This document shows, one piece after another, positions 11,096 through 34,164 of a stretch of DNA of 64,000 bases. Below the pieces are notes generated by a model. The model did not search any database, had not been told where the DNA came from, and saw only the letters and a program-made list of their open reading frames with translations. The position numbers were made by a program, and so were the translations under genes. How positions within the stretch are numbered: the first letter of the stretch is position 1; each line of letters begins with the position of its first letter. Origin of the DNA: Sphingobium lactosutens DS20 (GTDB lineage Bacteria > Pseudomonadota > Alphaproteobacteria > Sphingomonadales > Sphingomonadaceae); contig NZ_ATDP01000107.1 in NCBI RefSeq assembly GCF_000445105.1, positions 124,001 through 188,000 of the forward strand, read 5' to 3'.

Positions 11096-11367
11096 TGGGC
11101 GAGGCCGATCTCCTCCCCGCCGGCTATTTCGCGCCCGTGCATCGCGCGCTGAGCGAGCCGATCCTGCTCGGCGGGGCGCCGCGCTCGCTTGCCATCCTGA
11201 CCGGGACGCTCGCAGGAGCGGTCGGTCTGGGACTGCGACTCTGGATCGCGGGCCTCGCCATCTGGGCGATCGGCCATGCGCTCGGGGTCTGGGCCGCCCG
11301 GCGCGATCCGCAATTCGTCGATGTCGCACGCCGCCACCTCAAATATCCGACCTGGGTGCGGCCATGA
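11095..11367 (+). CDS. trbD: TrbD inner-membrane protein (VirB3-like)
   Basis: A 90-residue protein with the VirB3/TrbD pattern: ...GYFAPVHRALSEPILLGGAPR, then a hydrophobic hairpin (about residues 34-62), then DPQFVDVARRHLKYP. It anchors the assembly ATPase TrbE, whose gene overlaps it by four bases. The start is the ATG of TGATG shared with the trbC stop. Confidence 0.92.
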   Translation: MGEADLLPAGYFAPVHRALSEPILLGGAPRSLAILTGTLAGAVGLGLRLWIAGLAIWAIGHALGVWAARRDPQFVDVARRHLKYPTWVRP

Positions 11368-16079: not shown

Positions 16080-16082
16080 CGC

Positions 16083-18481: not shown

Positions 18482-19522
18482 ATGGAGATTAGCACGATCG
18501 GCCTCGATTTGGCCAAGAACGTTTTTCAGGTTCACGGTATCAGCGCGACCGGTGAGGTCATCATTCGCAAGGCGCTGCGACGATCGCAGATGCTGCAGTT
18601 CTTCGAGAAGCTGCCGCCGTGCCTGGTAGGCGCCGAGGCTTGCGGGACGTCGCATCACTGGGCGCGCGAACTGACCAAGCTGGGTCATGAGGTTCGGCTG
18701 ATGCCGGCGGCTTACGTGAAGCCTTACGTAAAGCGCGGAAAGAACGACGCCGCCGATGCTGAGGCGATCTGCGAAGCGGTTACACGTCAGACGATGCGGT
18801 TCGTGCCCATCAAGTCGCGCGAGCAGCAGGCGGCATTGTCGCTGCACCGAGTGCGCCAGCTGTTGATCAAACAGCGCACGCAGCTGGTCAACATGATGCG
18901 CAGCGTGCTTGCCGAGCTGGGCACCGCCATCCCAGTAGGGATCGTGAAGGCACTGCATATGGCGCGGGAGATTGTCGACGGGGAGTCCACGCTCGACTTG
19001 CCGCCCGAAGCGGCGAACGTCGTCGCAATGCTGGCAGGGCAACTGCTCCAGCTTCACATCCAATTGCGCAAGCTCGACCTGCGTCTCGCCGCTCTGCAGC
19101 GCAGCGACGAGCGGGCTCGACGCCTGGCAACGATCCCTGGTATCGGACCGATCGGTGCGACTGCACTCGCCGCGTCGGTGACCGATCCAAGCCAGTTCTC
19201 GTCAGGGCGACAGTTTGCCGCCTGGCTAGGGCTGACCCCGCGACAGAGTTCGAGTGGCGGCAAGGAACGCTTGGGGCGCATTACCAAGATGGGCGACCGG
19301 TATCTGCGGCAGCTCCTGGTTGTCGGCGCAACCGCGCTCGTCCGATACGCCAAGCAGAAACCCAGCACGGTCGATCCGCGCTTCGTCGCGTTGCTCGCCA
19401 GGAAGCCCGCGCGTGTCGCCTCGGTCGCCATCGCCAACAAGATGGCGCGGATCGCATGGGCAGTCATGGCGCGCGGCGGCGTCTTCGAACGCGGGCATGC
19501 GCCGATGCTGGCTGCGGCATAG
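18482..19522 (+). CDS. IS1111-group transposase (DEDD recombinase)
   Basis: A 346-residue IS110-family transposase. The N-terminal RuvC-like DEDD domain starts MEISTIGLDLAKNVFQVHG, with Asp9, and continues GAEACGTSHHWAREL and KNDAADAEAI. The C-terminal transposase_20 domain has IPGIGPIGATALAASV and the serine-containing LTPRQSSSGGKERLG. Both domains are full length with no frameshift, so the enzyme is probably active. The ATG follows GAAGGAG. Confidence 0.95.
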   Translation: MEISTIGLDLAKNVFQVHGISATGEVIIRKALRRSQMLQFFEKLPPCLVGAEACGTSHHWARELTKLGHEVRLMPAAYVKPYVKRGKNDAADAEAICEAVTRQTMRFVPIKSREQQAALSLHRVRQLLIKQRTQLVNMMRSVLAELGTAIPVGIVKALHMAREIVDGESTLDLPPEAANVVAMLAGQLLQLHIQLRKLDLRLAALQRSDERARRLATIPGIGPIGATALAASVTDPSQFSSGRQFAAWLGLTPRQSSSGGKERLGRITKMGDRYLRQLLVVGATALVRYAKQKPSTVDPRFVALLARKPARVASVAIANKMARIAWAVMARGGVFERGHAPMLAAA

Positions 19523-19783
19523 ATTAAGAGCTTAGCTGCGGAGATCAGCTTCACGAAGTTGTGAGAGCGAAGGATGTGATGGCAAAACCGGTCGGACCGG
19601 GAACAAGGACAACCCAAGGAACGTCATAGGCATGATAGCCTGCAAAGCCGATCGGACCTTGTTCGCGGACACCATCAGGGCCAGCAGTCTACACCGACTG
19701 CATCAACAGGCCGGACAGACGACTGCACCCGACGGAACGTCAGATCATCACTTTATGCTTGCAACGCGGGAGCCATCCACAGA
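19523..19783 (+). other. Non-coding right end of the IS1111 element; possible bridge (seek) RNA locus
   Basis: About 260 bases between the transposase stop and the element end hold no plausible gene. In IS1111-group elements this region encodes the guide RNA that pairs with target and donor DNA. A CCGGTCGGACCGG dyad (19590-19602) and other short GC-rich dyads fit a structured RNA. I did not establish guide loops. Confidence 0.4.
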
Positions 19784-20411
19784 GGTCGTTCCTTCAGGTC
19801 AGGGCCAATCGCTCGACCGAAAGCCCCGAGCGAATTCTGTCGCCCAGCTCGGCCAACATTCTGCAAGCCGGGAGCATCATTCCGGCGGCGCTCATCACCG
19901 GCATCCGGTCGGACTTGCCGGGCCAGATCAGCGCGCAGGTTACGCAGAATGTCTATGACAGTCCGACCGGCCGCATCCTGCTGATCCCTCAAGGCTCCCG
20001 GCTGATCGGCGAATATGACAGCGAGGTCTCGGCAGGCCAAAACCGCGTGCTGCTCGCATGGGACAGGATCATCTTCCCGAATGGCCGTTCGATTCTCCTC
20101 GATCGTCAGCCCGGTGCCGATGGTGCCGGCATGGCGGGCTTGCAGGACCGCACCAACTATCATTGGGGCAACATGCTCCGCGCCGCTGCCATCTCGACCT
20201 TGCTCGGGGTTGGCGCAGAACTGGCGACGGGGAGCGACGACAGCCTGACCCGAGCGTTGCGCTCCGGCACACAGGATACCGTCAATCAGACCGGGCGCCA
20301 GCTCGTGCAGCGCGAGATGAATGTGCCACCGACCCTGACAATCCGGTCCGGCTATCCGATCCGGGTGTTCCTCACCCGAGATCTCGTGCTTGACCGAATG
20401 GAGAAACGACC

Positions 20412-20636
20412 ATGACGAAGTTGCGGCTCGGCCCCATCGACGATGACAAACCCGTCAAGGTCCAGGTCGAGCTTCCCGGCTCGGTCCACCGTGATCTTCT
20501 GGCTTATGCAAAGGCCCATGCAGAGGAGACCGGCTTGGCACAGCCCTTGACCGTCGAGCGGCTCATCGCGCCGATGCTGGCGCGCTTCATGGCAACCGAT
20601 CGCGGCTTTGCCCGGAAATCGCGAAACTCCAGCTAG
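20412..20636 (+). CDS. DUF2274 family protein at the end of the trb operon
   Basis: A 74-residue protein starting MTKLRLGPIDDDKPVKVQVE, a DUF2274 opening found after trbI in many Trb operons. The residues VHRDLLAYAKAHAEETG followed by LIAPMLARFMATDRGFA resemble a ribbon-helix-helix-like small regulator. It overlaps trbI by four bases. Its TAG stop is formed by the target dinucleotide TA and the first G of the adjacent IS5 element, so the last residue or two may differ from the original. Confidence 0.8.
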   Translation: MTKLRLGPIDDDKPVKVQVELPGSVHRDLLAYAKAHAEETGLAQPLTVERLIAPMLARFMATDRGFARKSRNSS

Positions 20637-21484
20637 GTCGCGTTGACAAAAGGGATTCCCAAATCAGCTTCCGTCTGATTCAAGGCTTTCTTTTGGAAGG
20701 CAGGCATGGATCGCGGGGACCTGAGCGACGCGGAATGGGAATTGATCGGGCCGCTGTTGCCGCCTGAGCGAGGCAGGCACGCGCGCCCTGCCGGAGACAA
20801 CCGGCGCTACCTCAACGGAATGCTGCACGTCTTGCGGGTTGGCTGCCCCTGGCGGGACATGCATGAACGCTATGGGAAGTGGAACTCGGTCTACGTCCGC
20901 TTCCGCCGTTGGGCCGAGCAGAGCGTCTGGGATGCCATGCTGCAAACTCTGGTCGATCTGGGTCTGACCGACGACTGGCAGCACATGATCGACAGCACCA
21001 CGGTTCGCGGCCATGTCTCGGCCGTGGGCGGAAAAGGGGGGCTTGTGCGCAGGCTTTTGGTCGATCACGCGGCGGCTTTACGTGCAAAGTCCACGCCCGC
21101 TGCGACAATCAAGGCCTCCCTCTCGGCTTCCACCTGACGGGCGGCGAGGCTTCCGATTACGGCGGTGTCGATAGCCTGATGGCCATGCCGGTGCCAAAGC
21201 CTGCGGCCTTGCTCGCCGACAAGGGCTACGATGGCGACCGCTTCCGCGAAGACCTGCTCCTGAATAACATCCTGCCGGTCATCCCGCCGCGGTCGAACCG
21301 CAAGGCACCACAGCATCCTGACTATCGACGCTATCGCGATCGCAACCGCGTCGAGCGCATGTTCGGCTTCCTCAAACAACAGCGCCGCATCGCAACACGC
21401 TTCGAGAAAACCGCGCTATCCTACCTCAGCTTCCTCAACCTCGCCGCAGCACGGCTATGGCTCAAGCATTTTGTCAACGCGACC
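20636..21484 (+). mobile_element. IS5-family (IS427-like) insertion sequence, 849 bp
   Basis: Perfect 16-bp terminal inverted repeats GGTCGCGTTGACAAAA (20636-20651) and TTTTGTCAACGCGACC (21469-21484) are flanked by TA on each side (20634-20635 and 21485-21486), the usual 2-bp duplication for IS427-like elements. It carries one transposase in two frames. It separates the conjugation operon from the lasso peptide promoter region. Whether the same target continued on the far side cannot be tested here. Confidence 0.92.
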
Positions 21485-21487
21485 TAA
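20706..21487 (+). CDS. IS5-family transposase, expressed by -1 frameshift
   Basis: The first frame (20706-21137) encodes the N-terminal half, MDRGDLSDAEWELIGPLLPPE..., through the DDE Asp in MIDSTTVRGHVSA. The second frame, read after about 21041, encodes GRSRGGFTCKVHARCDNQG, then LADKGYDGDRFR (second Asp) and RNRVERMFGFLKQ (Glu). The change is -1 and falls at GGAAAAGGGGGG (21030-21041), a slippery run used by IS427-like elements. The TAA stop lies in the flanking target TA plus A. It is probably functional. Confidence 0.88.
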
Positions 21488-21846
21488 TATCCAGATTGGT
21501 TGAGATTTTTGCTTGCGTGCCGATAGGGGCAGGCTCACATTTCTTTTCGCTCGGGAGTGATCTTGAGCGGTGACCGGGTGGCCGGCGCGCATGTCCAGGC
21601 CCCCGCTAAAGGCGCCGGCGCGTGCTTCCAACGCACGTTTTCACTGCTCGGTCACTCTTCTTACTTAACCACGCGATTACTCTCGTACTCCGAGAATTTC
21701 TGGGGCTTGTTCGCTCGCGAAGCCTGCCTTTAAGAAGGCTCTTCCGGACGATCGATTATAATCCGATTATAAAATAGATCAGTACAAATCACTGACTTAG
21801 CCTTCACAGGCGACAATGGAGTCGCGTCTTGCTGAAGGAGGTCACC
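21488..21846 (+). promoter_or_regulatory. Non-coding leader and promoter region of the lasso operon
   Basis: There is no credible gene in these 359 bases. An AT-rich patch near 21751-21780 in otherwise GC-rich DNA contains two CGATTATAA repeats, and a short hairpin GCCTT-TAAG-AAGGC lies at 21726-21739. The region ends in the strong ribosome site AAGGAGGT at 21835-21842. Transcription of the lasso genes probably starts between 21760 and 21830. Confidence 0.55.
21753..21772 (+). promoter_or_regulatory. Two CGATTATAA direct repeats, 11 bp apart
   Basis: CGATTATAA occurs at 21753-21761 and again at 21764-21772, one helical turn apart and on the same DNA face. The first copy includes TATAAT (21757-21762), a possible -10 element, though no convincing -35 box is seen at 17 bp. 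This could be an operator for an activator or repressor of the lasso operon. Confidence 0.4.
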
Positions 21847-21984
21847 ATGACCGAACACAATGAAATGCTCGAAGACGAAGCCATCGAGCTGGGCATCGCC
21901 AGCGTCGAGACGAAAGGCAACGGCCTTCGCGTCATCGACGGCATCTCGACGCTGCAGCCGCTCGCCGGCATTTCCGACGACTGA
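21847..21984 (+). CDS. Lasso peptide precursor (A protein)
   Basis: A 45-residue precursor, translated from a strong AAGGAGGT site. The 23-residue leader ends ...SVETK, with the threonine at position -2 that lasso processing enzymes need. The predicted 22-residue core begins GNGLRVID: Gly1 and Asp8 would form an 8-residue macrolactam ring. The tail includes Q14, P15 and L16 and ends GISDD, the C-terminal style of caulonodin/sphingonodin-type peptides from Caulobacterales and sphingomonads. The acidic leader (EDEAIELG) is usual. No second precursor is seen. Cut site and ring size are predictions. Confidence 0.92.
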   Translation: MTEHNEMLEDEAIELGIASVETKGNGLRVIDGISTLQPLAGISDD

Positions 21985-21989
21985 CGGTT

Positions 21990-22020
21990 CTGGCGCGTGT
22001 ATTTCCGATACGCGCGCCAG
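21990..22020 (+). promoter_or_regulatory. 12-bp stem-loop between precursor and B genes
   Basis: CTGGCGCGTGTA (21990-22001) pairs with TACGCGCGCCAG (22009-22020) around a 7-base loop TTTCCGA, with one G-U pair. It starts five bases after the precursor stop. Hairpins at this place are known from other proteobacterial lasso clusters and are thought to raise precursor over enzyme expression by attenuation or mRNA stabilisation. Confidence 0.75.
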
Positions 22021-22035
22021 TCCCCGGACAAACCC

Positions 22036-22680
22036 ATGGAAAGCCCCCAAGAATCCACTCCTTTGGCATTCTGTGTCATCGATAATCGCGCGGTATTTCT
22101 AGACATTGATGGTGATCGCTATTTCTGCCTCCCGTCGAAGCTCAATCAGGCATTCTTGGATGGTCTCAGTCAACCGGTTGGATTGAAAGATGAAGCCCGC
22201 GAGCGTCTAGCCCAAGTTGGGGTTCTTACGGGGCCTTTTACCGAATCCTTCCCGAGCCAGCCTCGTGTCTGTTCACCCGCTCAAGATCTGAAACCCGGCA
22301 ATCCGCGCAGATTCCTACTGTCGGCTGCGGTCGCGCAGAGCCGGATGCGGTTTCGTTTGCGCCGCTGGAGCTTCTCCAGGATCATCCAGGCGGAGCGGCG
22401 CCGACAAAAGACACATCGCAGCGGCGGCGAGCCCCTAGAAGCTTGTCAGCTTTACGGGTCTTTCCGCACTCTCACGCCATGGTTCGGGGAAGACGATCAG
22501 TGCCTCGCACGGGCGCTGGCCTTTCGAATGATCGCGATGAAACACGGCCATGACGCGTCGCTTGTCATTGGCGTGAAGCTCGATCCTTTCGCTGCCCACT
22601 GCTGGATTCAGGATGGTCCGCGTCTTCTCAACGATCGGCTCGAGAGGGTTCGGCTATTCACGCCGATCCTGGCACTCTGA
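22036..22680 (+). CDS. Lasso peptide B protein (fused RRE and leader protease)
   Basis: A 214-residue fusion. The N-terminal RRE-like part (about residues 8-50, FCVIDNRAVFLDIDGDRYFCL) binds the leader. The C-terminal transglutaminase-like cysteine protease removes it. The catalytic triad is Cys156 (EDDQCLARALA), His188 (AAHCWIQ) and Asp200 (LLND), with the same 32- and 12-residue spacing as the McjB triad as I recall it. The ATG at 22036 is preferred to GTG 21997, which lies in the hairpin. Its stop shares a base with the C start (TGATG). Confidence 0.92.
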   Translation: MESPQESTPLAFCVIDNRAVFLDIDGDRYFCLPSKLNQAFLDGLSQPVGLKDEARERLAQVGVLTGPFTESFPSQPRVCSPAQDLKPGNPRRFLLSAAVAQSRMRFRLRRWSFSRIIQAERRRQKTHRSGGEPLEACQLYGSFRTLTPWFGEDDQCLARALAFRMIAMKHGHDASLVIGVKLDPFAAHCWIQDGPRLLNDRLERVRLFTPILAL

Positions 22681-24428
22681 TGGCGTTGCGCTATCTCCTC
22701 CGCATCGGGCAGACTCCAAATTCGACACGCGCATTTTCGCCTGACTTTCTTGCCAAAAGCGGGCTTTCGATCCTCTATTCCGATCAGCGGACCGTGCTGG
22801 CTTGCAACCAGGAAGAATGCTGGAGTCGCTTTGCCGACGGCAATGGATTGGTCGTCGGAAGTATCTTCCGCAGGGACCGCTTCTCGCAATTTCCGGTCTC
22901 CGCGAACGGAGAAACGATCGCCATGGATGCGGACGTTCACGCCGTTCTGACGTCGCTTTGGGGCGCGTTTGTCGCGGTCATCTTGGGCGCGAGCAGTATC
23001 ACGGTGACGCGCGATCCCTCGGGGCTCCTGCCGGCTTATTATGCCCGTTACGACGGTGATTGGTATTTCGCCTCCGACGTATCGGTGCTGGTCGAGGCCG
23101 GTATCATCGCGCCATCGGTCGATTGGGAAGGACTGGGCCGCGCGCTCTACGCCAACGAACTCCCCGAGGAACGAACCTCGCTCCTTGGCGTCCGTCAGCT
23201 CCTTCCTGGAATGGCAGTCGAATGTGCTGAGGATGGCGCACGGGCCAGTATGGTGTGGACACCCTGGACCCATGTCAATTCTAGGCCGCTCGACGACGAG
23301 CAGCTTCGCCGCCTGATCATATCCTGCCTACACGCGTGGGGATCGCGCTTCGATCGCGCACTGATCGGCGTCTCCGGTGGCCTCGATTCCTCTATCGCCG
23401 CCGCCGGGCTGCGCCGGTCGACGGAATTGCACGGGATCACCATTTCCACCCGCGATGCCCAAGGTGACGAAGCCCTTTATGCCCGTGCCTTGTGCGATCG
23501 GCTCGGCATAACGCTTGCGGAAGAATGTTATTCGCTCGATCGGGTCGATATCGAGCGATCCAGCTATGCCCATTGTCCTCGCCCCGGCGGACGCGCCCAG
23601 CTTCAGGCTTATGATGCGGCAATGCTGGACGTCGCCCACCGCTTGGGCACCGAGGCATTTTTCACCGGCGTAGGCGGCGACAATATATTTCAGTTCACGA
23701 AGTCAGCACGGCCACTGGTCGATCGCTATCTTGCCCAAGGCATCGGGCTTCATCTTTTCTCAACGCTGTCCGATATTTGCCGGCTCACCGGCGCAAATGC
23801 CTTCCGCGTCATTCGCGAGGCAGCAAAGGTTCCACGCAGCGGAACGCAGAAATATTTGTGGGTGCCTGATGAACGCTTCCTCTCGAAGGATGCGATCGCG
23901 GCCGCGGCAACCTCACGCTTGAGCCACCCGTGGCTCGAAGGACCGACAGACTCGCTTCCCGGCAAGGCCGCGCACATCGCGTTTCTGATCCGTACCCAAC
24001 ATTACATGGATGTGCACGATCGACGATGGCCGACGAGCACGCTGCACCCGCTCCTGTCGCTGCCGATCATCGAGGCGTGCCTCGCCATGCCGAGCTGGAC
24101 CGCTTGTGCAGGAGGTGTCGATCGAGCTTATGCGCGCCGCTCTTTTGCGGCAGATCTCCCAACGGAAACCCTGACACGCAGCGTCAAAAACGGTCCCGAC
24201 GGATTCGCGCACGCGATCATTCGACACCACCTCAGCCGCATCCGCGAACGGTTGCTCGATGGAGAGCTGGCCCAACGTAATATCCTTGATCGCGAAAAAC
24301 TGGATGCGGCGCTTAAGGAACAGCAGATCGCAAGAGGAGATGATTACCCCCGCATCCTGTTGCTGCTCGATACCGAAGCTTGGGCCGAGGGCTGGAGCGC
24401 CGGTTCACCAGCGAGCCGTCAGACCTGA
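22680..24428 (+). CDS. Lasso peptide cyclase (C protein, asparagine-synthetase-like)
   Basis: A 582-residue ATP-dependent macrolactam synthetase. The N-terminal part is a degenerate class II amidotransferase domain. The synthetase domain has the ATP-pyrophosphatase loop SGGLDSS at 232-238 and FFTGVGGDNIFQ further on. It adenylates the Asp8 side chain and joins it to Gly1 of the core. It is translationally coupled to B by TGATG. Only nine bases separate its end from the end of the convergent isopeptidase gene. No ABC transporter gene is present, as usual for isopeptidase-type clusters. Confidence 0.94.
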   Translation: MALRYLLRIGQTPNSTRAFSPDFLAKSGLSILYSDQRTVLACNQEECWSRFADGNGLVVGSIFRRDRFSQFPVSANGETIAMDADVHAVLTSLWGAFVAVILGASSITVTRDPSGLLPAYYARYDGDWYFASDVSVLVEAGIIAPSVDWEGLGRALYANELPEERTSLLGVRQLLPGMAVECAEDGARASMVWTPWTHVNSRPLDDEQLRRLIISCLHAWGSRFDRALIGVSGGLDSSIAAAGLRRSTELHGITISTRDAQGDEALYARALCDRLGITLAEECYSLDRVDIERSSYAHCPRPGGRAQLQAYDAAMLDVAHRLGTEAFFTGVGGDNIFQFTKSARPLVDRYLAQGIGLHLFSTLSDICRLTGANAFRVIREAAKVPRSGTQKYLWVPDERFLSKDAIAAAATSRLSHPWLEGPTDSLPGKAAHIAFLIRTQHYMDVHDRRWPTSTLHPLLSLPIIEACLAMPSWTACAGGVDRAYARRSFAADLPTETLTRSVKNGPDGFAHAIIRHHLSRIRERLLDGELAQRNILDREKLDAALKEQQIARGDDYPRILLLLDTEAWAEGWSAGSPASRQT

Positions 24429-24437
24429 GCGCCCGTG

Positions 24438-26519
24438 CTATTGTATACTGGACATGGCTGCCCACCGTGCGGCTTCCGCCTTGCGACGCGGATCTTCCGG
24501 CATTGCGCCGCGAAGCCAGAACTCGAACCAGTCTATGCTGCGCTCATATGCAGCGAGCTTGTGCGCAGGCTGCCATTTGATGTGATGCTCATCGGGGAAT
24601 ATAAACAGATCGGCGGGTTTTCCGACCTCCTTGAGCGCCGTGTAGCTCTCCAGTGCTACCCGGAACTCCTCGTCCGACGTTTCGAACAGGATCGGAAACG
24701 CAACCCGCCTGGCATTTTTGGCGATCGACATCCGCGCCCAGAAAGCATCGTCCACGGCACTGACCCCAGGCCATCCGATGCGTCGATAAACATCGGCCAT
24801 AGCCGGCCCTAGAATCGCAGTCTGCCCCGGCTCCCAGCAACAGCCACTAGCGATGCCGGCTGCGAAAAGGCGGCTGTTCAACGCGGCAAACTGCACGGTC
24901 GATGACCCATCGCTTAGCCCGGTGATACCTATTTTGGCGGGATCGGCGATTCCGCGGTCGATCAGCGTGCGAACCCCGTTTTCCACCACTGACAGCACGC
25001 TTCGGCGATCGGCAAAATCTTGAAGACCGATCCGGTCGACTTCCACATAGTCCCGTGGACGCGCGCGCGCACCAACGGGCTGCGGTCGCTGAACGCTCAG
25101 AACGGCAAAGCCGCGATTGGCGAAGGCCTGGATAGGGAATTCGTCGCCGGTCCCGCCACGAAGAAAGCCGCGCGACTGATACTGAACGACGACCGCGGGA
25201 TATCGATGGCCGGCGCGATATCCTTCCGGGAACACGACATCACCGAAAGCTTCAAGTCCTGCGTCACTTTTGAGCGGAATGCGCTCAACCCGCCCTAATG
25301 TAAGCCGCTCAAACTCCGGATTAGGATCGACGATTGTTGTCATGGTCCCTGTATCCGTATCGATCACCACTAACCGACGCGACGTCACCGAAGTCTCGCG
25401 CAGACAGGCAAGATGCGTTTTTCGCAACGGCTGACAATCGATCAGAAAGTCACTTGTCTCGAATAACTTACGCACCGTCTGGGTCGCAGGCTTCCACTCA
25501 TATGTCGCCATAATCGTGTCGGCCCAGCCCTCACGTCGCAGGAAGCGAACCGAGGACCGATCCGGCATCCAGACCGGACCGCTCGTGTTTGTGCAAGCAG
25601 CGGCGCTGCAGAACGAGACGGGGCCATTCGCACACCGGATTTCGAGACGGGTCTGTGGCGGAACACCCGTCGTGATTTCCCGGCGGTCGACCGAACAGCC
25701 CACACCTAACGCCCTCGGGTTCTGCGATCCTGCACCGATGGTCGAGATAGGCAGGCCACCGCCTCCCGCGATGGCGGTGCGCTGCCCCGAGCGCAGATCA
25801 ACTTGGTAGCGTGTGAACGGCGGCGAGCGCGGGATTTTCGGACGGTCGGACAAGAACGGCATGAACCGATCGTCAAAATGATAGCCCGTCAACGCTTCGT
25901 GATCGCTTGCAGCCCTTGCTTCCACAACCCCTGATCGGACGCTGGCAGTCAGCGAACCCATGCCGTCGAGCGCGAATTCCTGCACATCCTGATCGAATGC
26001 GGTGACGGGGCGACTGCCGTTGCCCATGGCGTCGGCCCGCCAAACCTGGACAACACCATTATCGCGCTTGAGAAAATAGATCGCATTTCCGTCGGGCGAC
26101 CATTGCGGCGTGATAATCGCTGGCACGCCAGTGCTGCGTCGCGGCTCGACCGTCGCATCCATCTCTTCCCGAATCAAGTCACCGCCGCGATCCACGAAAA
26201 GCGGCACAGCGCCGCTACCTATTCGCATAACCACCATGCCGAGGCAGAAGCTGTTGCGGTCGGGGTCGCCCTGCCGAACCTGAAAGGCGACAGATCGCTG
26301 ATCCGGCGAGATCGCAAATATATGCTGTTCGGGAACAGCGTCGCCCAGCGATCCGATATCACGAAGGGTTACAAGGTCGCGCGGCGTCACGGCCGCGCGA
26401 CCGGCTGGAACTTCGACCTTCGACCAATCCAGTCTTGAGCATGAATCCAAAGCCATCGCCGTGTGCGGGACCAGCGCCCACAAGCCGACGCAGAGGATAG
26501 AGCCCGCCCTCAGCCGCAT
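24438..26519 (-). CDS. Lasso peptide isopeptidase
   Basis: A 693-residue exported protein of the prolyl-oligopeptidase fold. Signal peptide at about 1-23, beta-propeller at about 40-400, and alpha/beta hydrolase with Ser536 in GLSDG, Asp616 in ETSDEEF and His645 or His646 in PDEHHIK. The catalytic order and spacing match AtxE2-type isopeptidases, which hydrolyse the ring isopeptide bond and linearise the lasso peptide. It is three bases downstream of the TonB receptor, so imported peptide would meet the enzyme in the periplasm or soon after. GCCW at 559-562 adds two adjacent cysteines. Confidence 0.9.
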   Translation of the reverse strand: MRLRAGSILCVGLWALVPHTAMALDSCSRLDWSKVEVPAGRAAVTPRDLVTLRDIGSLGDAVPEQHIFAISPDQRSVAFQVRQGDPDRNSFCLGMVVMRIGSGAVPLFVDRGGDLIREEMDATVEPRRSTGVPAIITPQWSPDGNAIYFLKRDNGVVQVWRADAMGNGSRPVTAFDQDVQEFALDGMGSLTASVRSGVVEARAASDHEALTGYHFDDRFMPFLSDRPKIPRSPPFTRYQVDLRSGQRTAIAGGGGLPISTIGAGSQNPRALGVGCSVDRREITTGVPPQTRLEIRCANGPVSFCSAAACTNTSGPVWMPDRSSVRFLRREGWADTIMATYEWKPATQTVRKLFETSDFLIDCQPLRKTHLACLRETSVTSRRLVVIDTDTGTMTTIVDPNPEFERLTLGRVERIPLKSDAGLEAFGDVVFPEGYRAGHRYPAVVVQYQSRGFLRGGTGDEFPIQAFANRGFAVLSVQRPQPVGARARPRDYVEVDRIGLQDFADRRSVLSVVENGVRTLIDRGIADPAKIGITGLSDGSSTVQFAALNSRLFAAGIASGCCWEPGQTAILGPAMADVYRRIGWPGVSAVDDAFWARMSIAKNARRVAFPILFETSDEEFRVALESYTALKEVGKPADLFIFPDEHHIKWQPAHKLAAYERSIDWFEFWLRGAMPEDPRRKAEAARWAAMSSIQ

Positions 26520-26522
26520 GAT

Positions 26523-29117
26523 CTACCAGCGCTTCGTGATGGTGGCGCTGATCACCCGACCGAGCGCCGGGTAGTTCGTGGAATCATAGGGCGGGTCGAT
26601 CAGCGATGAGGTCCGGATTGTCTCCGGTTTCCGGTTAAAAAGGTTGGAGACCGCAAGCGTCAGGTCGGCACCCCGAAAGATGCCATCCGTTCCCGACACC
26701 TTGGCAACAAGGTCGGTCGATACGAATGAACTGATCCGAAGGTGGGGCTGCTGCCGGTTGTCGGTTACGCCACCAACATAGTTGAGGAACCCCGAGATCG
26801 TCACATTGCCCTGCTCGAACGTCGCGCCGCCGCGCGCGCGCCAATGCGGCGGATAGAAGATTACGCCGGCGGTCGGTGTCGTTGGTTGCCCCGCAAGCAG
26901 GCGACGATTGCTATCGATGTAGCTTCCGGCGGCATTGAGATCGAGCGCACCGCCCGCAGCGAGGTCGAACGCATATCGCGCGGAGAGGTCTATCCCCTGG
27001 ATCGCCTGATAGGCAGTGTTCTGCGCGCGAGCGTCAACCACCGCATAGACCGTCGCAGGATCATAAGGCTGGCCAGTGAAATTCTGGAGACCGAAGGCTC
27101 CGGCAGCGGGCACGATCAACTGATCGAGCAATGCGGCGGATGGGAAATAGGTGATGAGGCTCGAATAAGTCGAACTGCTGAAAAGGCCGACCGTCGAGGT
27201 CAGCGGATTCACGACCCGATTGCGATATTTGATGTTGTAGTAATTCGCCTCGAACCGCAGTCCGGGAACGCTCGTGGGCGCGAAGGCAGCCGATACCGTC
27301 CATGTCGAAGCGCGCTCCGGTTTCAGATCAGGATTGCCGCCAGCGAGATAGAGCAAAACCTTGTCGCCGATCACCCCGTCCTGACCGAGGTCCGCCGCGC
27401 CGATCAACAGTGCCTGATAGACTTTGTATCGCTGGTAAAAGGTGGGCGCCTTGAAGGATTTCCCCCAGCTCCCCTTGATCGTCACCGATGGTGTCGGTCG
27501 GTAAACCACCCCAAGTTTCGGCGATGCGACATCGGCGAGGCCTTCGTATCGCTCGTAGCGCACCGCAGCGGAAAGCTGCAGCATATCAAAAAACGGCTGC
27601 CGATTCCCCTGCCCGAAAATCGGGACGGAGATTTCGCCGAAGGCATATTCGACATTCTCTCGATGATTGATGTTGAGAAGGTTGATCGTGGTCGCGCCGA
27701 ATGCGATCGCCGACTTTGATCTCAACGAAAAGCCGCGATAGCCGCCGCCCACAGCTAGGCCGACATTGCCGCCGGGAAGCGAGAAAATTGTCCCGTCGCC
27801 GCGAAGCTCAACAGTGTACAGCCGATTATCGTAAAAAACATTCGATGTGGATGCGAGCGTGCCCGCCGCATAGGCGTTCCCTGGGGCGTTGGTCAGGCTG
27901 CGGCCATAGATGCCGGTAAGACTGACCTTCCAATCCGCCCCCACCAAGGCGTTGATCACCGGGCTGATCGAATAGCTCGTCACCCTTGGGAAGTAGATAT
28001 TCCCGTTCGTCCGCGCGTCGGACGTGGCTGTCGTGGGGTTGGCGAAGCTGCTCTCACGACGACTATATTGCGCATCAAGTCCAAATTCGAAATTCGGCGA
28101 AAGCGTCTGATGCCCATTGAAGACCGCGCTATATTGCTTCTGATACGGGATCAGCGTTGACGAGCCATCGAGCGCTTGTGTGTAGGAGCGCTGCGCTGCC
28201 GTGACGGCCGTCGAACGGTTGAAGCCGCCCGCTAGCATGAAACCGCCCGATTCCCATTTCGAACCGGTGACAAGATCATATTGCTCGGTAAAAGCACCGC
28301 CATCGGTCGCGCCCCCGATCCGTGCCGAGGTGACCGCCCCTTCGAAATCCTTCCGCAGAATGACATTGGCAACCCCGCCAACCGCATCCGACCCGTAAAG
28401 CGCAGACGCGCCGTCCGGCACGATCTCGATCCGCTCCAGTGCGGCCAAGGGTATCGCGGAGATGTCGACGCCTTGTGCAGCGCCATCATAAGCGACGCGA
28501 TGACCGTTGATGAGGGTCAGCGTTGCGTCGGGTCCAAGGCCACGAAGGTTGAGCGCGGAGGTCGCGCCGACATTCTCGCTGCCGCCCTGGACACCGCCCC
28601 CGACGATACCAGGATTCTGACCACCCCCGAAATTCTGCGGCAGGCTCCTGATGAACTCGCCGAGATTGGATTGCCCACTTTTTTCGATTTCCGAGCGACT
28701 GGCCGTAACGACGCTATTTACCGGCTCGCTCCTCCGGATACGTGTCCCCGTCACAACGATATCGTCGCCATCCGGGGGCGTGCTCAACGCGGCGCGCGCG
28801 GTCGCTCGCCCCCGGATGATGACAGCCCCCCTATCGAACCTCGCCTCGAGATTCGTGCCCTTCAGCAGCCGTTCGATCGCCTCGCGCGCGGTGAGCGATC
28901 CTCGCAGCGCTGGCGCCGCCTTGCCGTTCAGGTCGTCGGTTTGCGCGTATAATTCCCATCCGGCACGCGCAGCGATACTCCGCAGCGCGTCCCCCAGATC
29001 CTGCGATGGCATGTCGAACGGATAGGCTTGCCCGTCCTGCGCCCAGACCTGGGAAGGCACAATCATCCCCACCGTGCCGGCAAGCAGCGCCGCGATCACA
29101 TACCGTCGTTTCCCCAC
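26523..29117 (-). CDS. TonB-dependent transducer-receptor, predicted lasso peptide importer
   Basis: An 864-residue outer-membrane receptor. Signal peptide to about residue 26, then an STN signalling domain (about 33-103: PSQDLGDALRSIAARAGWEL... to IIIRG), a TonB-box/plug start DDIVVTGTRI near 120, and a 22-strand barrel ending in the aromatic TKRW. The STN domain marks receptors that signal through FecR to an ECF sigma factor, and both are encoded just upstream. The GTG at 29117 has GGGAGG before it. Substrate specificity for the cluster's own peptide is inferred from linkage. Confidence 0.9.
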   Translation of the reverse strand: MGKRRYVIAALLAGTVGMIVPSQVWAQDGQAYPFDMPSQDLGDALRSIAARAGWELYAQTDDLNGKAAPALRGSLTAREAIERLLKGTNLEARFDRGAVIIRGRATARAALSTPPDGDDIVVTGTRIRRSEPVNSVVTASRSEIEKSGQSNLGEFIRSLPQNFGGGQNPGIVGGGVQGGSENVGATSALNLRGLGPDATLTLINGHRVAYDGAAQGVDISAIPLAALERIEIVPDGASALYGSDAVGGVANVILRKDFEGAVTSARIGGATDGGAFTEQYDLVTGSKWESGGFMLAGGFNRSTAVTAAQRSYTQALDGSSTLIPYQKQYSAVFNGHQTLSPNFEFGLDAQYSRRESSFANPTTATSDARTNGNIYFPRVTSYSISPVINALVGADWKVSLTGIYGRSLTNAPGNAYAAGTLASTSNVFYDNRLYTVELRGDGTIFSLPGGNVGLAVGGGYRGFSLRSKSAIAFGATTINLLNINHRENVEYAFGEISVPIFGQGNRQPFFDMLQLSAAVRYERYEGLADVASPKLGVVYRPTPSVTIKGSWGKSFKAPTFYQRYKVYQALLIGAADLGQDGVIGDKVLLYLAGGNPDLKPERASTWTVSAAFAPTSVPGLRFEANYYNIKYRNRVVNPLTSTVGLFSSSTYSSLITYFPSAALLDQLIVPAAGAFGLQNFTGQPYDPATVYAVVDARAQNTAYQAIQGIDLSARYAFDLAAGGALDLNAAGSYIDSNRRLLAGQPTTPTAGVIFYPPHWRARGGATFEQGNVTISGFLNYVGGVTDNRQQPHLRISSFVSTDLVAKVSGTDGIFRGADLTLAVSNLFNRKPETIRTSSLIDPPYDSTNYPALGRVISATITKRW

Positions 29118-29216
29118 TGTTCATCCTCCCAGGTCGCGAGCAGCTCGATCGGCTCGCTTGCTGGTAAGGAATTCGACGCGGCGCTTGATCGAGACCTTAG
29201 CGGCGCGGAAGGAATT

Positions 29217-30305
29217 TTATCTTCTGCTCAGGTGAATCCCGTCAGGTCTCTTCGAAACCTTCAAGGCGAACAGCTCCGCGATCCGCTTCACAAAGGCATC
29301 GGTGTCCGTGAGTTTGAAGCGGCCAGTGACCCCGCGCGCGGCAAGCACCGGATCGTCGATGACGAGCGGCGTCTTCGCGTAACGGTTCGCCTCGCTGATC
29401 AGGCCCGCCAGCGGAATCGTGCGATAGTCCACCCAGCCCTCGGTCCAGTTGCGGGTATCGGCTATCGGCGCCGCAACCGGCCTGGGCTCGAACGCGCCCG
29501 GCGGATAGGTGACGGGCTGATCGATCGTCAGCATCCGCGCGACGCTGTCTTTTCCTTCGTTGCCATCGCGCAAATCCGCCACACCGGCGCGAAGTTGAAG
29601 GTCCACATGGCGGTCGCGATCCACGGCAACGTCGAGCGTACCCTTTGATGTCACCACCTTTCCGGTGCCGGCCTCGATCGTAAACGGCCGGTCGTCGGCC
29701 TTGACAACAAAGCGCGCCCTCCCCTCCTCGATCAGCGCATGACGGCGAGCACGATCCATGATGATCTTTACGCGGCTATCAGTGTCGAGTGTCATGTTCG
29801 ATCCATCCGCCAGGTCGAACGAGCGAATATCGCCATGCCCGGTTTGAAAGACTTCCGCTTTCGCCGGTGAGAAAAGGGACAGACTGTTCAAGGTCGGCGC
29901 GACGCCGACGGCAAAGGCCAACACGGCGGCGGAGGCCGCAGCCGCAACACCTATCCGCCATGCCCGGCGGGATCCGGATCGCACGGCGTCCTGCGGGCGG
30001 CCCATGCCTCCCGGCTCGGCGGTCCGCGCCGCTTCGATCGGGATGATATGAGCCGGCCGCCGATGGGAGCTGGGGAAGGATTGCCCGAGCGTCCGCTCGA
30101 CCCGCGCACGAATGTCGTCCGACATCGGCGTGCTGAACATCACCGTCGCAAAAGCCTCGCGATTCTCCCGGCTTGTGCCGAACCACGCTTTCAGCGCCGT
30201 CAGGTCGGTTTCCGACGCATCATCGAGAAACCGGACAGTCCAGGCCGAGGCCTCTTTCACGGCCTTTGACGGTTCGATCCCGTCGGGCCACGGCTCGTCC
30301 GTCAT
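29217..30305 (-). CDS. FecR-type anti-sigma regulator
   Basis: A 362-residue inner-membrane protein with a cytoplasmic N-terminal domain (EASAWTVRFLDDASETDLTALKAWF), one membrane segment at about 118-136 and a periplasmic FecR domain (FQTGHGDIRSFDLADGSNMTLDTDS...). The C-terminal part contacts the STN domain of the receptor. It overlaps the sigma gene by four bases. The 99 bases between it and the receptor gene may hold the sigma-dependent receptor promoter. Confidence 0.92.
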   Translation of the reverse strand: MTDEPWPDGIEPSKAVKEASAWTVRFLDDASETDLTALKAWFGTSRENREAFATVMFSTPMSDDIRARVERTLGQSFPSSHRRPAHIIPIEAARTAEPGGMGRPQDAVRSGSRRAWRIGVAAAASAAVLAFAVGVAPTLNSLSLFSPAKAEVFQTGHGDIRSFDLADGSNMTLDTDSRVKIIMDRARRHALIEEGRARFVVKADDRPFTIEAGTGKVVTSKGTLDVAVDRDRHVDLQLRAGVADLRDGNEGKDSVARMLTIDQPVTYPPGAFEPRPVAAPIADTRNWTEGWVDYRTIPLAGLISEANRYAKTPLVIDDPVLAARGVTGRFKLTDTDAFVKRIAELFALKVSKRPDGIHLSRR

Positions 30306-30910
30306 CGATGGGCTTCCATCAGGGTTGCGACGAAGGCGATCGCGCGCATCATATGATATTCTACGGTCGCCACAGTGATCCCAAGTTCCTTGCTGATCTG
30401 CCGGTAGGTCAGATTCTCGACCCTGCTCATGAGGAATACGCGGCGCGTTTTTTCTGGCAAGCGATCAATCGCCTGCTCATAGGCCCGCTGAAGGTCAGAC
30501 GCTTGGATCGCCATGTCCTGCTCAGGTTGGACCACCTCGTCGCGCGCTTCGTCGAGCGGAAACAGGATGACGTTGTTCGCGTGCCGGCGGCGCGCCCGAT
30601 CAATCAGCAGATTGCGTGCGATCCGCGTCAGAAAGGCGGCGGGATTTGCGAGTACGCCCGCCTGGCGGCTACCGGCGGCGCGCGTGAACACCTCTTGGAC
30701 GAGATCCGGCGCCTGGTCCGGCCCGGCCCGACGACCAAGATATCGAAGAAGCCGCCGTCGTTCGCTGCGAAACGCTTCTTCAAGCGTCGGCCCTGCGTCA
30801 GCGTCGCTATTCGGAACCGCTGCGCCATCGCTCACAGGGCCATGATGGCAGGCCGATGACACCGACAACGGATGTCGCACAACGGGGACTGGCGTGATTG
30901 ACGATGACAT
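30302..30910 (-). CDS. ECF sigma factor (FecI-like)
   Basis: A sigma-70 family extracytoplasmic-function factor. Region 2 contains LLRYLGRRAGPDQAPDLVQEVFTRA and region 4 has LPEKTRRVFLMSRVENLTYRQISKELGITVATVEYHM. From ATG 30910 it would be 202 residues; GTG 30835 gives 177 residues, nearer to the family norm, and may be the true start. It probably drives the fecR-receptor-isopeptidase genes when the receptor is occupied. The 283 bases upstream (30911-31193) show no gene. Confidence 0.9.
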   Translation of the reverse strand: MSSSITPVPVVRHPLSVSSACHHGPVSDGAAVPNSDADAGPTLEEAFRSERRRLLRYLGRRAGPDQAPDLVQEVFTRAAGSRQAGVLANPAAFLTRIARNLLIDRARRRHANNVILFPLDEARDEVVQPEQDMAIQASDLQRAYEQAIDRLPEKTRRVFLMSRVENLTYRQISKELGITVATVEYHMMRAIAFVATLMEAHR

Positions 30911-31193: not shown

Positions 31194-31808
31194 TTACGTT
31201 GCCGAAGGCCCCTCTCGGGCCAGGCGGGCGATGACGGCGGCGCGGTCAGCACGCCGCCGATGATAATGGTCGATCGCGCGGCGCACGGTTCCCCGCAGCG
31301 CACCGCCCGCGAGTTGCTCGATTGCGTCAAGCTCATGTTCCACGTCACCGAGCGCCGCGCCTTCGTATCGACGAAACGACCCGAGACGGGCGGCCGCATT
31401 GCTCATCGCCCAATCCAGCTCACTATTGCCGGCGGTCGCGGCAATTGCCCCGAACAGCAATGCCGTCCGCTCACCGATACCGTCATGGTCCTGCGGCACC
31501 TCGATCCGGGGAAGCGGCCCGCGCCTATGACTCAGTGCCGCGAACAGCAGCATATGGTGCCACTGGAGCAGCGTGCGGAATTCGGTTTCGTCGAACCGCG
31601 GCACATGGAAGCCGTCTCCGGGCGTGGAATGCACCAATCGCTCGCCAACCAATCGATTGAGCGCATCGCGCACTGGCGTGATGCTGACGCCAAATTCGTC
31701 GGCAAGCCGAACGGCTTCAAGCCGCTGCCCTGATGGCGAAGCGCCGGTCAGTAACCGCCGCCGCAGCGCATCATAGGTCGGCTCAAGGACATGAGCCGGG
31801 CTCATCAT
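31194..31808 (-). CDS. GntR-family (FadR-type) regulator
   Basis: A 204-residue regulator. The N-terminal winged helix has LRRRLLTGASPSGQRLEAVRLADEFGVSITPVRDALNRLVGERLV, and the C-terminal all-helical part resembles an FCD effector domain. Its ATG overlaps the phyH stop by four bases, so it is co-translated with luxI and phyH. GntR genes recur beside isopeptidase-type lasso clusters, as I recall. It could link the quorum-sensing operon to the lasso genes; the effector is unknown. Confidence 0.88.
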   Translation of the reverse strand: MMSPAHVLEPTYDALRRRLLTGASPSGQRLEAVRLADEFGVSITPVRDALNRLVGERLVHSTPGDGFHVPRFDETEFRTLLQWHHMLLFAALSHRRGPLPRIEVPQDHDGIGERTALLFGAIAATAGNSELDWAMSNAAARLGSFRRYEGAALGDVEHELDAIEQLAGGALRGTVRRAIDHYHRRRADRAAVIARLAREGPSAT

Positions 31809-32683
31809 GTCCTCGCTATCTCATCAACATAGGTGGCAATCATCGCCTCCTGATCGGGACGCAACGCATCGATCGCCCCGATGTGGCGGGGCACCTCATT
31901 GCGCAGCAGGATCGAGGGACATTGCCCTTCATAGTTGCCAAGGTTGGGACGGTGCTGGGCATAGCCCACCAGCGCGGAAAGTTCGGGTGAAAAGGCTCGC
32001 GCAATCTCCGGCGGATAGGCGAGCCATTGATTCTCATAGGGCTTGAGCCAGCCGAGGCAGTAGCCCACCACAATCCCGCGCCGCGGAAGATTGGTAAGAT
32101 TGGCGCCGGCGCCGTGAGCGGTCGAGCCGAGAAAGCAGATCGCCGATCCCGGACCACACTCAGCCGCCACGGGCTCGCCGAGATCGGTTCGCGCCATCCC
32201 AGCCGCGCCGTGGCTATGGGGATAGATCAGTGTTGCGCCATTCTCTCGAGTAAACGGCGTCAGCGGCCAGATCACGTTGACGAGATATTCGTGGCCGCCC
32301 TTCGCCCCCTGCCACATATCATGATCGCGGTGCGGGAGTTGCCGTGCTTCGCCGGGTTGGATTTCAATCGCCTGGGCGACGTTGAGCTGGATCCGGTCGC
32401 ATGCATCTCCCAGCACGGTTTCGACCGCATCAATGATCGTCGCGTTCATCACCAGCGCTGACATGTGCGTCGAATGCTTGAGCAAGCTCCCGAAACGCTT
32501 GGTCCGCTCCCCATAGAAAAGGCCCTGACACAGCGGTGTCACGGCGAACACGGGATCGAGATCAGCGTTGAGGGCTGTGACAACCAACTCCGGCAAGGCA
32601 TCCGGGATGATGCAATAGCCATCCTGGAGAAGTTGGCGCGCCCACGCTTCAGGCGACCGCTGGGACGGGGTGTGCGCGTTCAT
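31805..32683 (-). CDS. Phytanoyl-CoA dioxygenase family protein (PhyH)
   Basis: A 292-residue Fe(II)/2-oxoglutarate-dependent oxygenase. The cupin core holds the metal site HRDHDMW (His and Asp), then a distal His in STAHGAGANL, and an Arg near LPRRGIVVGYC that would bind 2-oxoglutarate. It overlaps luxI by four bases and gntR by four. A luxR-luxI-phyH arrangement recurs in sphingomonads, as I recall, but the substrate is unknown. Tailoring of the acyl-homoserine lactone or its precursor is one possibility. Confidence 0.85.
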   Translation of the reverse strand: MNAHTPSQRSPEAWARQLLQDGYCIIPDALPELVVTALNADLDPVFAVTPLCQGLFYGERTKRFGSLLKHSTHMSALVMNATIIDAVETVLGDACDRIQLNVAQAIEIQPGEARQLPHRDHDMWQGAKGGHEYLVNVIWPLTPFTRENGATLIYPHSHGAAGMARTDLGEPVAAECGPGSAICFLGSTAHGAGANLTNLPRRGIVVGYCLGWLKPYENQWLAYPPEIARAFSPELSALVGYAQHRPNLGNYEGQCPSILLRNEVPRHIGAIDALRPDQEAMIATYVDEIART

Positions 32684-33309
32684 TGCGTCTCTCCCCCGAT
32701 CCGCGTCCGCACCAGCGCATGGTCCGCATCTGCTCCGATTCCACCAGCCCGCAGTCTTTCGGGCGTATCGGCCTCGATCAGAATATGAAGCGCGGTGAGG
32801 AAGCGCCCGCCGTGCCGCATCGGTTGGCCCAGAGCCTCGCATCTCCACCCGAACCGCCTGATCTGCTTGAACCATTCGACTTCCGCCACGCCGGTATAGG
32901 CGGTGATCCCGGTGGCCAGCGCATAGTCGGCAAGAGCAGTGACAAGTTGGTTGCGCGCCGCGCGGCGCTCGCCAGCACGTTGGTCGCGATCGAGACAGAA
33001 GCGCGTGATCTCGCGGATGGTCGGGCCGGCGGGCACCGGTCCCGCGCAAAGGTGCGCATAGAGATCGCCCAGCAGGTGCGGACGGTCGGTGCGAAGCAGG
33101 CGGGCCGAGGCGCGATGCTCCATGCTTCGCCCAAGCAGGATCAGATATTCGGCGTCGACATCGTCAAACTGATCGATCTCGAATTCGCCGGCAAGGACCG
33201 GCAGATCCCATTTGAGGAGATCGACAAACACCTCCTTGCGTGCCCGATACATCGCGCGCAGCGCCGCGCTTTCGTCGACCGCGAGGCAATCTCCATTTTC
33301 CTGTAACAT
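32680..33309 (-). CDS. luxI: Acyl-homoserine-lactone synthase (LuxI family)
   Basis: A 209-residue autoinducer synthase that joins an acyl chain to S-adenosylmethionine. The diagnostic LuxI pattern is present: YRARKEVFVDLLKWDLPV, EIDQFDDVDAEYLI, ASARLLRTDRPHLLGD and REITRFCLDRD. Length is normal. It lies 90 bases after luxR, in the same direction. Its ribosome site AGGAG is inside the right arm (in mRNA sense) of the 13-bp inverted repeat at 33313-33349. Signal acyl length cannot be read from sequence. Confidence 0.92.
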   Translation of the reverse strand: MLQENGDCLAVDESAALRAMYRARKEVFVDLLKWDLPVLAGEFEIDQFDDVDAEYLILLGRSMEHRASARLLRTDRPHLLGDLYAHLCAGPVPAGPTIREITRFCLDRDQRAGERRAARNQLVTALADYALATGITAYTGVAEVEWFKQIRRFGWRCEALGQPMRHGGRFLTALHILIEADTPERLRAGGIGADADHALVRTRIGGETQ

Positions 33310-33312
33310 GAC

Positions 33313-33349
33313 GCTCTCCTGTGCGGGTCATTCCCGCGCACAGGAGAGC
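33313..33349 (-). promoter_or_regulatory. 13-bp inverted repeat covering the luxI ribosome site
   Basis: GCTCTCCTGTGCG (33313-33325) and CGCACAGGAGAGC (33337-33349) are perfect complements around 11 bases. In the luxI mRNA the second arm contains AGGAG, three bases before the ATG. The folded mRNA would hide the ribosome site behind CTCCT. The inner CTGT...ACAG also recalls half-sites of LuxR boxes, though the spacing is long for a lux box. Confidence 0.7.
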
Positions 33350-33399
33350 ACCGGCGCCGACCGCCTGCCCATAACAAGAAAGGGGGATGGGCTTGCTCG

Positions 33400-34164
33400 T
33401 CACCGCCTTCGTTTTCGCCGCTCGCGCCAGCGAAAAATATCGGCGAAGCTGATCAGTCCGTCGAAGAGCGCACACAGGATGAGCGAAGCCCGTTTGTCCG
33501 CGTCATATCGGTCACGCGCCTCGCGGAGATGTTGCACGACGGTGTCGCGACTGATGCCGAGAATCCTGGATATCTCCCAATCGGTCTTGCCTCGCGCCGC
33601 CCACAACACGCAGTCCCGCTGGCGGTCGGTGAGTTTTGGCGGCTCGCTCCGCTCCTCATATCCGGACACATTGCGCGCGCTGGCGAGCGCGATCGCACCG
33701 AGGAGTTCGGCGCCAGGCAGCATCGCTTCGGGCAAATTTCTGTCTGTCCCGATCACAAAGCTGCAGGAACCCGTAATTTCGCCAGGCATGTGACGCGGCA
33801 CAGTGTAGCCGTCAACGATGCCGTATTTGTGGCCCGCCTCGAATGTTCGTCGCTCGAAATCCGTAACCGGAATGAGGTGACGGATCCGCTGCCATTTGAA
33901 GCCGAGCAAACTCCGTTCCGCGGCCCGGCGGATCGGATCGGTCTCAGCAAGATTGAACCCGATATACATATCGGCCCAGCTCGCTGGATAATCATGAATC
34001 AGGACGGATGTGCCGAACGCGCTTCCGCAGCCGATCTCAAGCGACAGTGCGAAGCGATCGAAACCTAGATCGTGCGTCGTCTTCGCCAGCAACTCATGCA
34101 GTTCGTCGACCGAGTTTGCGGCCAAGATCAGCTCTCCAAGCGACTCAATTAGTTCAAAATACAT
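33400..34164 (-). CDS. luxR: LuxR-family quorum-sensing regulator
   Basis: A 254-residue regulator. The N-terminal autoinducer-binding domain (about 15-165) has the family W and D residues in YPASWADMYIGFNLAETDPIRRAAERS and FKWQRI. The C-terminal helix-turn-helix starts LTDRQRDCVLWAARGKTDWEISRILGISRDTVVQHLREARDRY. It is followed directly by luxI and is its probable receptor. The C-terminus is extended by a basic tail RERRKRRR. Confidence 0.93.
   Translation of the reverse strand: MYFELIESLGELILAANSVDELHELLAKTTHDLGFDRFALSLEIGCGSAFGTSVLIHDYPASWADMYIGFNLAETDPIRRAAERSLLGFKWQRIRHLIPVTDFERRTFEAGHKYGIVDGYTVPRHMPGEITGSCSFVIGTDRNLPEAMLPGAELLGAIALASARNVSGYEERSEPPKLTDRQRDCVLWAARGKTDWEISRILGISRDTVVQHLREARDRYDADKRASLILCALFDGLISFADIFRWRERRKRRR

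Follow-up and report, generated by a model that had tools for sequence, protein, structure and literature searches.

Lasso peptide gene clusters of the isopeptidase type (the astexin-2/3, benenodin, sphingopyxin and sphingonodin types) combine the genes A, B and C with an AtxE2-type isopeptidase, a TonB receptor, FecR and a sigma factor, and a GntR-like regulator gene is described ahead of their precursor gene (PMC9266682). The role of these peptides for their producers is called enigmatic in the same paper. A published relative is sphingocin of Sphingomonas BPH, whose cluster has the layout A, B, C, isopeptidase and TonB receptor (PMC11006600). Separately, sphingomonad luxR-luxI-phyH loci are known, in which phyH adjoins luxI (PMC3704786, PMC4288048). 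Here we analysed a 64,000-nucleotide stretch of Sphingobium lactosutens DS20 (contig NZ_ATDP01000107.1, positions 124,001 to 188,000), referred to below as the window, which contains the same set of lasso genes next to genes for GntR, PhyH, LuxI and LuxR. The locus is an intact isopeptidase-type lasso system, and its expression is probably wired through GntR to quorum sensing by N-acyl homoserine lactones (AHL). The linkage of LuxI to lasso clusters and a palindromic element upstream of A, both derived from sequence comparison, are solid results.

An intact isopeptidase-type lasso system

As judged from its translations, the locus at 21847-30910 is an intact system made up of A-B-C, the isopeptidase E, a TonB-dependent receptor with an STN signalling domain, FecR and an extracytoplasmic function (ECF) sigma factor (Table 1); none of these translations has an internal stop. 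An earlier note on this DNA had proposed a complete system here, and all of its parts are indeed in place, those of A and E scoring above curated cut-offs. The precursor A reads MTEHNEMLEDEAIELGIASVETK/GNGLRVIDGISTLQPLAGISDD (leader/core) and has the Thr at -2, the Gly1 and the Asp8 that the note had pointed out. It matches Pfam Subterisin (3.5e-12) and NCBIfam lasso_benenodin (39.5 bits, cut-off 33) and, with Thr at -2 and an Asp within the positions 7-9 where Asp or Glu is expected, belongs to the benenodin/subterisin family. The suggestion that gene A, being too short for routine gene calling, could be missed in annotation did not hold, because the NCBI model NF033522 finds it, which puts the gene within reach of annotation.

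B has the Cys-His-Asp triad of a leader peptidase, as claimed. Its description as a fused enzyme, however, stays unconfirmed because the profiles match the protease half only (residues 104-212 in Pfam, 94-213 in NCBIfam), the leader-binding half being without a profile match. The cyclase motif SGGxDSS of C, and the Ser, Asp and two His residues named for E, were found as the note had them; E scores 761 bits against the NCBIfam model of AtxE2-family isopeptidases (cut-off 400). The receptor and the sigma/anti-sigma pair, also named earlier, follow downstream of E in the layout. No ABC transporter gene was noticed by eye among the open reading frames (ORFs) of the window, no profile search having been aimed at one. 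The predicted lasso has a computed monoisotopic mass of 2192.1437 Da ([M+2H]2+ 1097.079).

The sphingocin cluster resembles the window closely: it has a precursor of 45 amino acids with a core of 22, Asp8 and a tail ending in SDD, no D gene, and an isopeptidase and TonB receptor adjoining (PMC11006600), and in our alignment the two precursors are 42% identical. Unlike the window, it has another core, and the description of its cluster in the accessible part of PMC11006600 names no LuxI.

The core was unfamiliar to the author of the note, and the 22 residues were absent from all other genomes searched (397 family genomes, drawn evenly from a larger group, and 72,556 plasmid records). Precursor matches were obtained in 4 of the 397 genomes, that is, in the genome itself and in three others at 51-59% identity; neither the precursor in the plasmid records nor the DNA of the cluster in a search against plasmids gave a match, and none of the precursors read from 80 loci selected by their cyclase, or from the other loci fetched, has this core. 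The closest cyclases, at 47% identity, are those of L038 (uncultured bacterium) and L055 (Sphingopyxis indica), with L093 at 47% over a fragment; the cores of L038 and L055 likewise have 22 residues with Asp8. Novelty of the core alone carries little weight, since benenodin-type precursors are present in 53 of the 94 genus genomes, and by its sequence the peptide is an ordinary new member of a large known family. Another genus member (L031, from G398) has a precursor with the core GPGGITGDVGLGENNFGLSDD, which we take to be sphingonodin I.

Its gene order, on the other hand, sets the system apart as a layout variant: by gene content, its GntR regulator is part of a quorum-sensing gene set. Instead of a GntR gene, a DDE transposase precedes the precursor, and gntR lies upstream of the ECF gene, within luxI-phyH-gntR; this is a trait of layout, not of chemistry. 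The genes for GntR, PhyH, LuxI and LuxR (31194-34164) share the strand of the ECF gene and lie directly upstream of it. The extent given in the note, up to the ECF gene on the right, stands as far as it goes, but it omitted these four neighbours, the promoter element and two hairpins around A.

Table 1. Positions of the lasso genes, their neighbours and the proposed control elements in the window
Feature	Position	Strand	Remarks
DDE transposase element, two overlapping ORFs	20706..21487	+	second ORF scanned; site where many relatives carry gntR
17-bp palindrome TTATAATCCGATTATAA, proposed GntR operator	21756..21772	.	upstream of A
Candidate -10 TAGCCT	21798..21803	+	by eye from alignments
Hairpin GCGAC-AATGGA-GTCGC in the 5' untranslated region	21810..21825	+	between candidate -10 and Shine-Dalgarno site
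Lasso precursor A, 45 amino acids	21847..21984	+	leader 23, core 22 amino acids; predicted ring Gly1-Asp8
A-B intergenic hairpin, 14-bp stem	21990..22020	+	z -4.84
B, leader peptidase, 214 amino acids	22036..22680	+	C156-H188-D200
C, lasso cyclase	22680..24428	+	SGGLDSS starting at residue 232
E, AtxE2-family lasso isopeptidase	24438..26519	-	S536, D616, H645, H646
TonB-dependent receptor with STN signalling domain	26523..29117	-	
FecR anti-sigma factor	29217..30305	-	
ECF sigma factor	30302..30910	-	
GntR regulator, FadR/VanR-like fold, 204 amino acids	31194..31808	-	model pLDDT 93.4
PhyH dioxygenase	31805..32683	-	start overlaps luxI stop; stop overlaps gntR start
LuxI AHL synthase	32680..33309	-	R24, F28, W34
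lux-box-like palindrome upstream of luxI	33370..33389	-	weight matrix
LuxR receptor, autoinducer-binding and GerE domains	33400..34164	-	

LuxI genes often accompany lasso clusters

We searched the 80 cyclase-selected loci with the window proteins by tblastn (E 1e-5 or better). GntR was found in 58 of them, LuxI in 35, and PhyH and LuxR in 33 each; the corresponding counts were 74 for E, 76 for the receptor, 66 for FecR and 65 for the ECF factor. When only loci at least 21 kb long (59) are considered, GntR is present in 45, LuxI in 28, PhyH in 25 and LuxR in 27. Among the loci with LuxI, luxR-luxI-phyH-gntR-A-B-C on a single strand is the most frequent order. In 31 of 88 loci (some near-duplicates) three of these genes, luxI, phyH and gntR, are co-stranded, and their stop-to-stop distances (875-941 and 455-640) are nearly constant.

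The same tie is seen family-wide (397 genomes), independently of how the loci above were chosen, in a count of 150 LuxI matches listed and 115 cyclase rows for which up to three cyclase candidates were scored per genome (two of the three fragments of the broken G007 cyclase were excluded, while other split genes count more than once). Of the LuxI matches listed, 48 have a cyclase within 10 kb and 56 have one within 20 kb; the chance expectation within 10 kb, assuming random placement in 3.7-Mb genomes, is 0.85. Both genes are at most 20 kb apart in 52 of the 65 genomes that have the two among the matches listed. LuxI is found mainly in three positions relative to the cyclase: about 3.1 kb upstream and co-stranded, 9-10 kb downstream and on the opposite strand (the window type), or 9-17 kb downstream and co-stranded. 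The linkage is retained in three or more different arrangements and, on this comparison of gene orders, has outlived rearrangement.

Ten further stretches were picked by their LuxI-cyclase offsets. Seven of them (L175-L181) have the window order, luxI-phyH-gntR-ecf-fecR-receptor-E converging with A-B-C; LuxR precedes luxI in six of these seven and was not found in L175. In L182 and L183 luxR-luxI-phyH-gntR is in another orientation, and the L184 stretch ends before any luxI.

The LuxI of the window is an AHL synthase that has R24, F28 and W34, residues named as invariant (PMC3704786), and it is paired with LuxR. The lux-box-like match ahead of luxI proves little, since it is circular: the weight matrix was made from the luxI upstream regions of this set, the window site at 33370-33389 among them. 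The tie of luxI-phyH loci to lasso genes is what the present analysis adds. The main texts of PMC3704786 and PMC4288048 contain no occurrence of lasso, asparagine or GntR, nor of TonB in the case of PMC4288048, and a literature search, in which some listings were partial and subscription papers mostly outside, gave no title or abstract tying LuxI or PhyH to lasso genes.

A palindromic promoter element and its candidate binder

The proposed operator upstream of A, the 17-bp palindrome TTATAATCCGATTATAA, is contained in the element GATTATAATCCGATTATAA at 21754-21772. We compared 85 non-redundant upstream regions, thinned from 150 and including tandem second precursors and at least one doubtful ORF (L119, 17 amino acids). 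TATA repeats 11 bp apart occur in 31 of the 85 and repeats 22 bp apart in 14, against 0.4 in shuffles for either spacing. The exact palindrome has one copy in its own genome and three in the 397 genomes (in the window, at G336:C1:327343 and at G357:C18:45410), all of them 0.9-1.03 kb upstream of a lasso cyclase match; three sites with one mismatch (G320, G204, G109) are not near a listed cyclase. A search of viral contigs with the palindrome yielded 17 stretches. The central TATA starts 75-83 bases ahead of the start codon in 24 of 42 aligned regions, and 79 bases ahead in the window, which places the element just upstream of the expected -35 if TAGCCT at 21798, chosen by eye, is the -10. No consensus sigma-70 promoter was found upstream of A, which fits an activated promoter.

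We then asked which protein the element follows in its variation, using the 41 loci that have the element, GntR, cyclase and receptor (Mantel tests, 2000 permutations). Differences between elements correlated with those between GntR proteins at r 0.48, as against 0.24 for the cyclase and 0.28 for the receptor. In partial tests GntR given the cyclase retained 0.43 (p 0.0005, the floor), and the cyclase given GntR fell to -0.06. The ECF factor is likewise not favoured as the binder: in 36 loci GntR given ECF gave 0.40 and ECF given GntR -0.03. An OmpR-type direct-repeat reading of the element becomes less likely in view of the co-variation with GntR.

The modelled GntR protein has a winged helix and an all-helical C-terminal domain, as in FadR/VanR-type regulators. 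In a Foldseek search Atu1419/VanR came first by E-value, and AlkR/VanR and McbR gave TM-scores near 0.7. These regulators, one of which was solved on palindromic DNA, share the winged helix and the overall fold with the window protein, which differs from them in its length of 204 amino acids and in lacking a Pfam match in the C-terminal domain. Taken together, the co-variation and the VanR-like fold of the model are good indirect evidence for GntR as the presumed binder.

Proposed wiring

The following cascade would connect these elements. AHL-bound LuxR would turn on luxI-phyH-gntR, and GntR would bind the TTATAATCNGATTATAA element, whose place directly ahead of the -35 of A makes an activator more probable than a repressor. 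B would cleave the precursor after Lys23 and C would link Gly1 to Asp8 with the tail threaded. The hairpins may keep the level of the A message above those of B and C, an A-only message protected at both ends allowing substrate to exceed enzyme. The released peptide would be recognised by the STN receptor and, through FecR and the ECF factor, would raise the amounts of receptor and isopeptidase, and E would then open the imported lasso. Production would thus be set off by cell density, and the peptide would itself signal that it has come back. For the chain from AHL via LuxR, luxI-phyH-gntR and GntR to the lasso promoter, which is read from gene order and co-variation, we consider the chances roughly even.

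More tentatively, sphingomonad lasso peptides in general could form a second quorum-sensing tier, in which AHL raises GntR, GntR drives the lasso promoter and the lasso signals via the STN receptor and ECF factor. If so, the peptide would serve as an extracellular signal or carrier gated by density rather than as an antibiotic. A recurrent tie to AHL, a candidate operator and a candidate regulator make the enigmatic role of these peptides open to simple tests. They also suggest a reason why such clusters could be silent in ordinary culture, namely that the trigger may be density plus AHL. The conserved promoter and hairpins are further handles to switch them on.

Several observations weigh against this wiring. 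LuxI was not seen in the fetched DNA of 45 of the 80 loci, and the linkage counts are not independent events because the genomes are relatives; nor are the G336 and G357 palindromes independent, given their common genus label and the layout they share with the window (L175, L176). Cyclase relatives also occur on conjugative plasmids (11 of the 35 plasmid records with a match). LuxR, LuxI, PhyH and GntR could therefore be neighbours by ancestry, hitch-hiking beside an ordinary isopeptidase-type cluster without regulatory meaning. We regard this as unlikely, since the different arrangements all hold the lasso and LuxI genes together and phyH and gntR stay tightly spaced behind luxI in the 31 loci mentioned above.

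The window, moreover, carries conjugation genes at 4941-17755 (a type IV secretion system coupling protein and TrbE-like, TrbL, VirB8 and CagX-type genes). LuxI/LuxR pairs control conjugation on Ti plasmids, and the pair here might do the same for its own element and leave the lasso genes alone. This seems very improbable, because IS110-family and DDE elements separate the conjugation genes from the lasso genes, the former apparently inside the conjugation operon, and because the order luxI-phyH-gntR-ecf stands beside lasso genes in the seven other genomes (L175-L181).

The remaining points concern GntR and its site. In the window, neither A nor the ECF gene was found to be preceded by a lux-box-like site, so that control of A by LuxR would be indirect, by a chain via gntR. 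The proteins most similar to GntR in structure are named repressors. For GntR, a partial r was likewise obtained with a control stretch far upstream (0.17, p 0.0015) and, weakly, with the hairpin region (0.12, p 0.017; 0.15 in the reverse direction), and linked inheritance can raise co-variation because gntR mostly adjoins the promoter. The motif TTATAA-N5-TTATAA precedes A in 11 loci of L038-L117, redundant ones left aside, and in four of these (L038, L051, L054, L055) the fetched DNA shows no GntR, so that it would need to act from further away there. These four, and the presence of an ECF gene in more of the 80 loci than GntR, would suit an element that is an UP element, the site of another regulator (for example an unlinked response regulator of the OmpR/PhoB type, which prefers direct repeats of 11 bp) or a component of an ECF promoter. 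The 11-bp phasing and the place beside the -35 are compatible with several of these readings, and direct and inverted repeats are indistinguishable by sequence because the unit GATTATAATC is itself a palindrome. We nevertheless find these alternatives doubtful, because differences of the element between clades follow those of GntR, and neither cyclase nor ECF adds anything more once GntR is given.

Two hairpins flank the precursor gene

By their predicted folding, two hairpins flanking A are conserved in most relatives. Stems of five or more at -48 to -10 are present in 56 of the 85 upstream regions; in 200 shuffles the mean was 11.0 and the highest count 18. The adjoining stretch on the upstream side, in which part of the palindromic element lies, is likewise above its shuffles with 27 (mean 11.6, maximum 20), and the one beyond it, with 17 (12.0 and 22), is not. 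The 5' region has a mean folding z-score of -2.38, with 46 of 85 below -2, whereas a control stretch gave -0.19 and 2 of 85. For the hairpin between A and B the mean is -2.77, with 61 of 85 below -2. An Rfam search of 21400-24500 gave no match.

The short 5' hairpin (5 bp) is not kept in the minimum-energy fold of the whole A message of the window, in contrast to the A-B hairpin, which is. This loss, together with the perfect palindromes of some loci (for example, GTCATGGCCATGAC), raises the possibility that the 5' hairpin acts at the DNA level, as an operator, rather than as an RNA structure. The 70 regions with a stem of four or more, however, show 28 different inner arms, and L180 differs from the window by a two-sided change (GCGAT/ATCGC); an operator is, thus, improbable here, and an RNA hairpin remains our preferred reading. 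The A-B hairpin is probably already known, because removal of a hairpin for astexin-1 production has been described (PMC7549694). As for the 5' hairpin, nothing on such a structure was met in the literature search, of which PMC7549694 alone was opened, in its accessible part.

Other features of the window and the assembly

Within the conjugation region, one ORF at 8567-9583 combines nucleotidyltransferase and HEPN domains. The last gene of the conjugation operon (17752-20415; TrbI-like by eye, its front part without a Pfam match) is seemingly interrupted by an IS110-family transposase at 18455-19522. Near the lasso cluster, at 40623-42789, there are genes for a ferredoxin-reductase-like protein and a VanA-type Rieske oxygenase. 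These may be of interest given that a Tn5 insertion in the sphingocin B gene is reported to abolish phenanthrene use (PMC11006600).

The assembly itself (G000) has 5.35 Mb in 110 contigs, with 7.8% estimated contamination, and the window lies on G000:C107. Two more LuxI genes are found at G000:C36:41942-42466 and G000:C108:6648-7115, on contigs without a listed cyclase. A second lasso cluster (L013:3945-8664, on G000:C89) has the core GNDGVDIDHADRRLQSGLADD and an AtxE2-type isopeptidase of 702 bits; its cyclase frame has an in-frame TAG at L013:5343-5345. In a third (L148:5959-14122, on G000:C74) a GntR gene lies upstream of the precursor, whose core is GGALSVNDNQNGLRPIFGGLSAD, and the S9 peptidase, with a best stretch of 51.5 bits against the isopeptidase cut-off of 400, is possibly a divergent isopeptidase. 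A fourth, very divergent lasso-like locus (L149:6661-16837, on G000:C63) has a cyclase match and an S9 peptidase of 757 amino acids below the isopeptidase cut-off; by eye only, it also has GntR, a TonB receptor, FecR, a sigma factor and a candidate precursor ending in ASFSGGQPEMILDREYTVGG.

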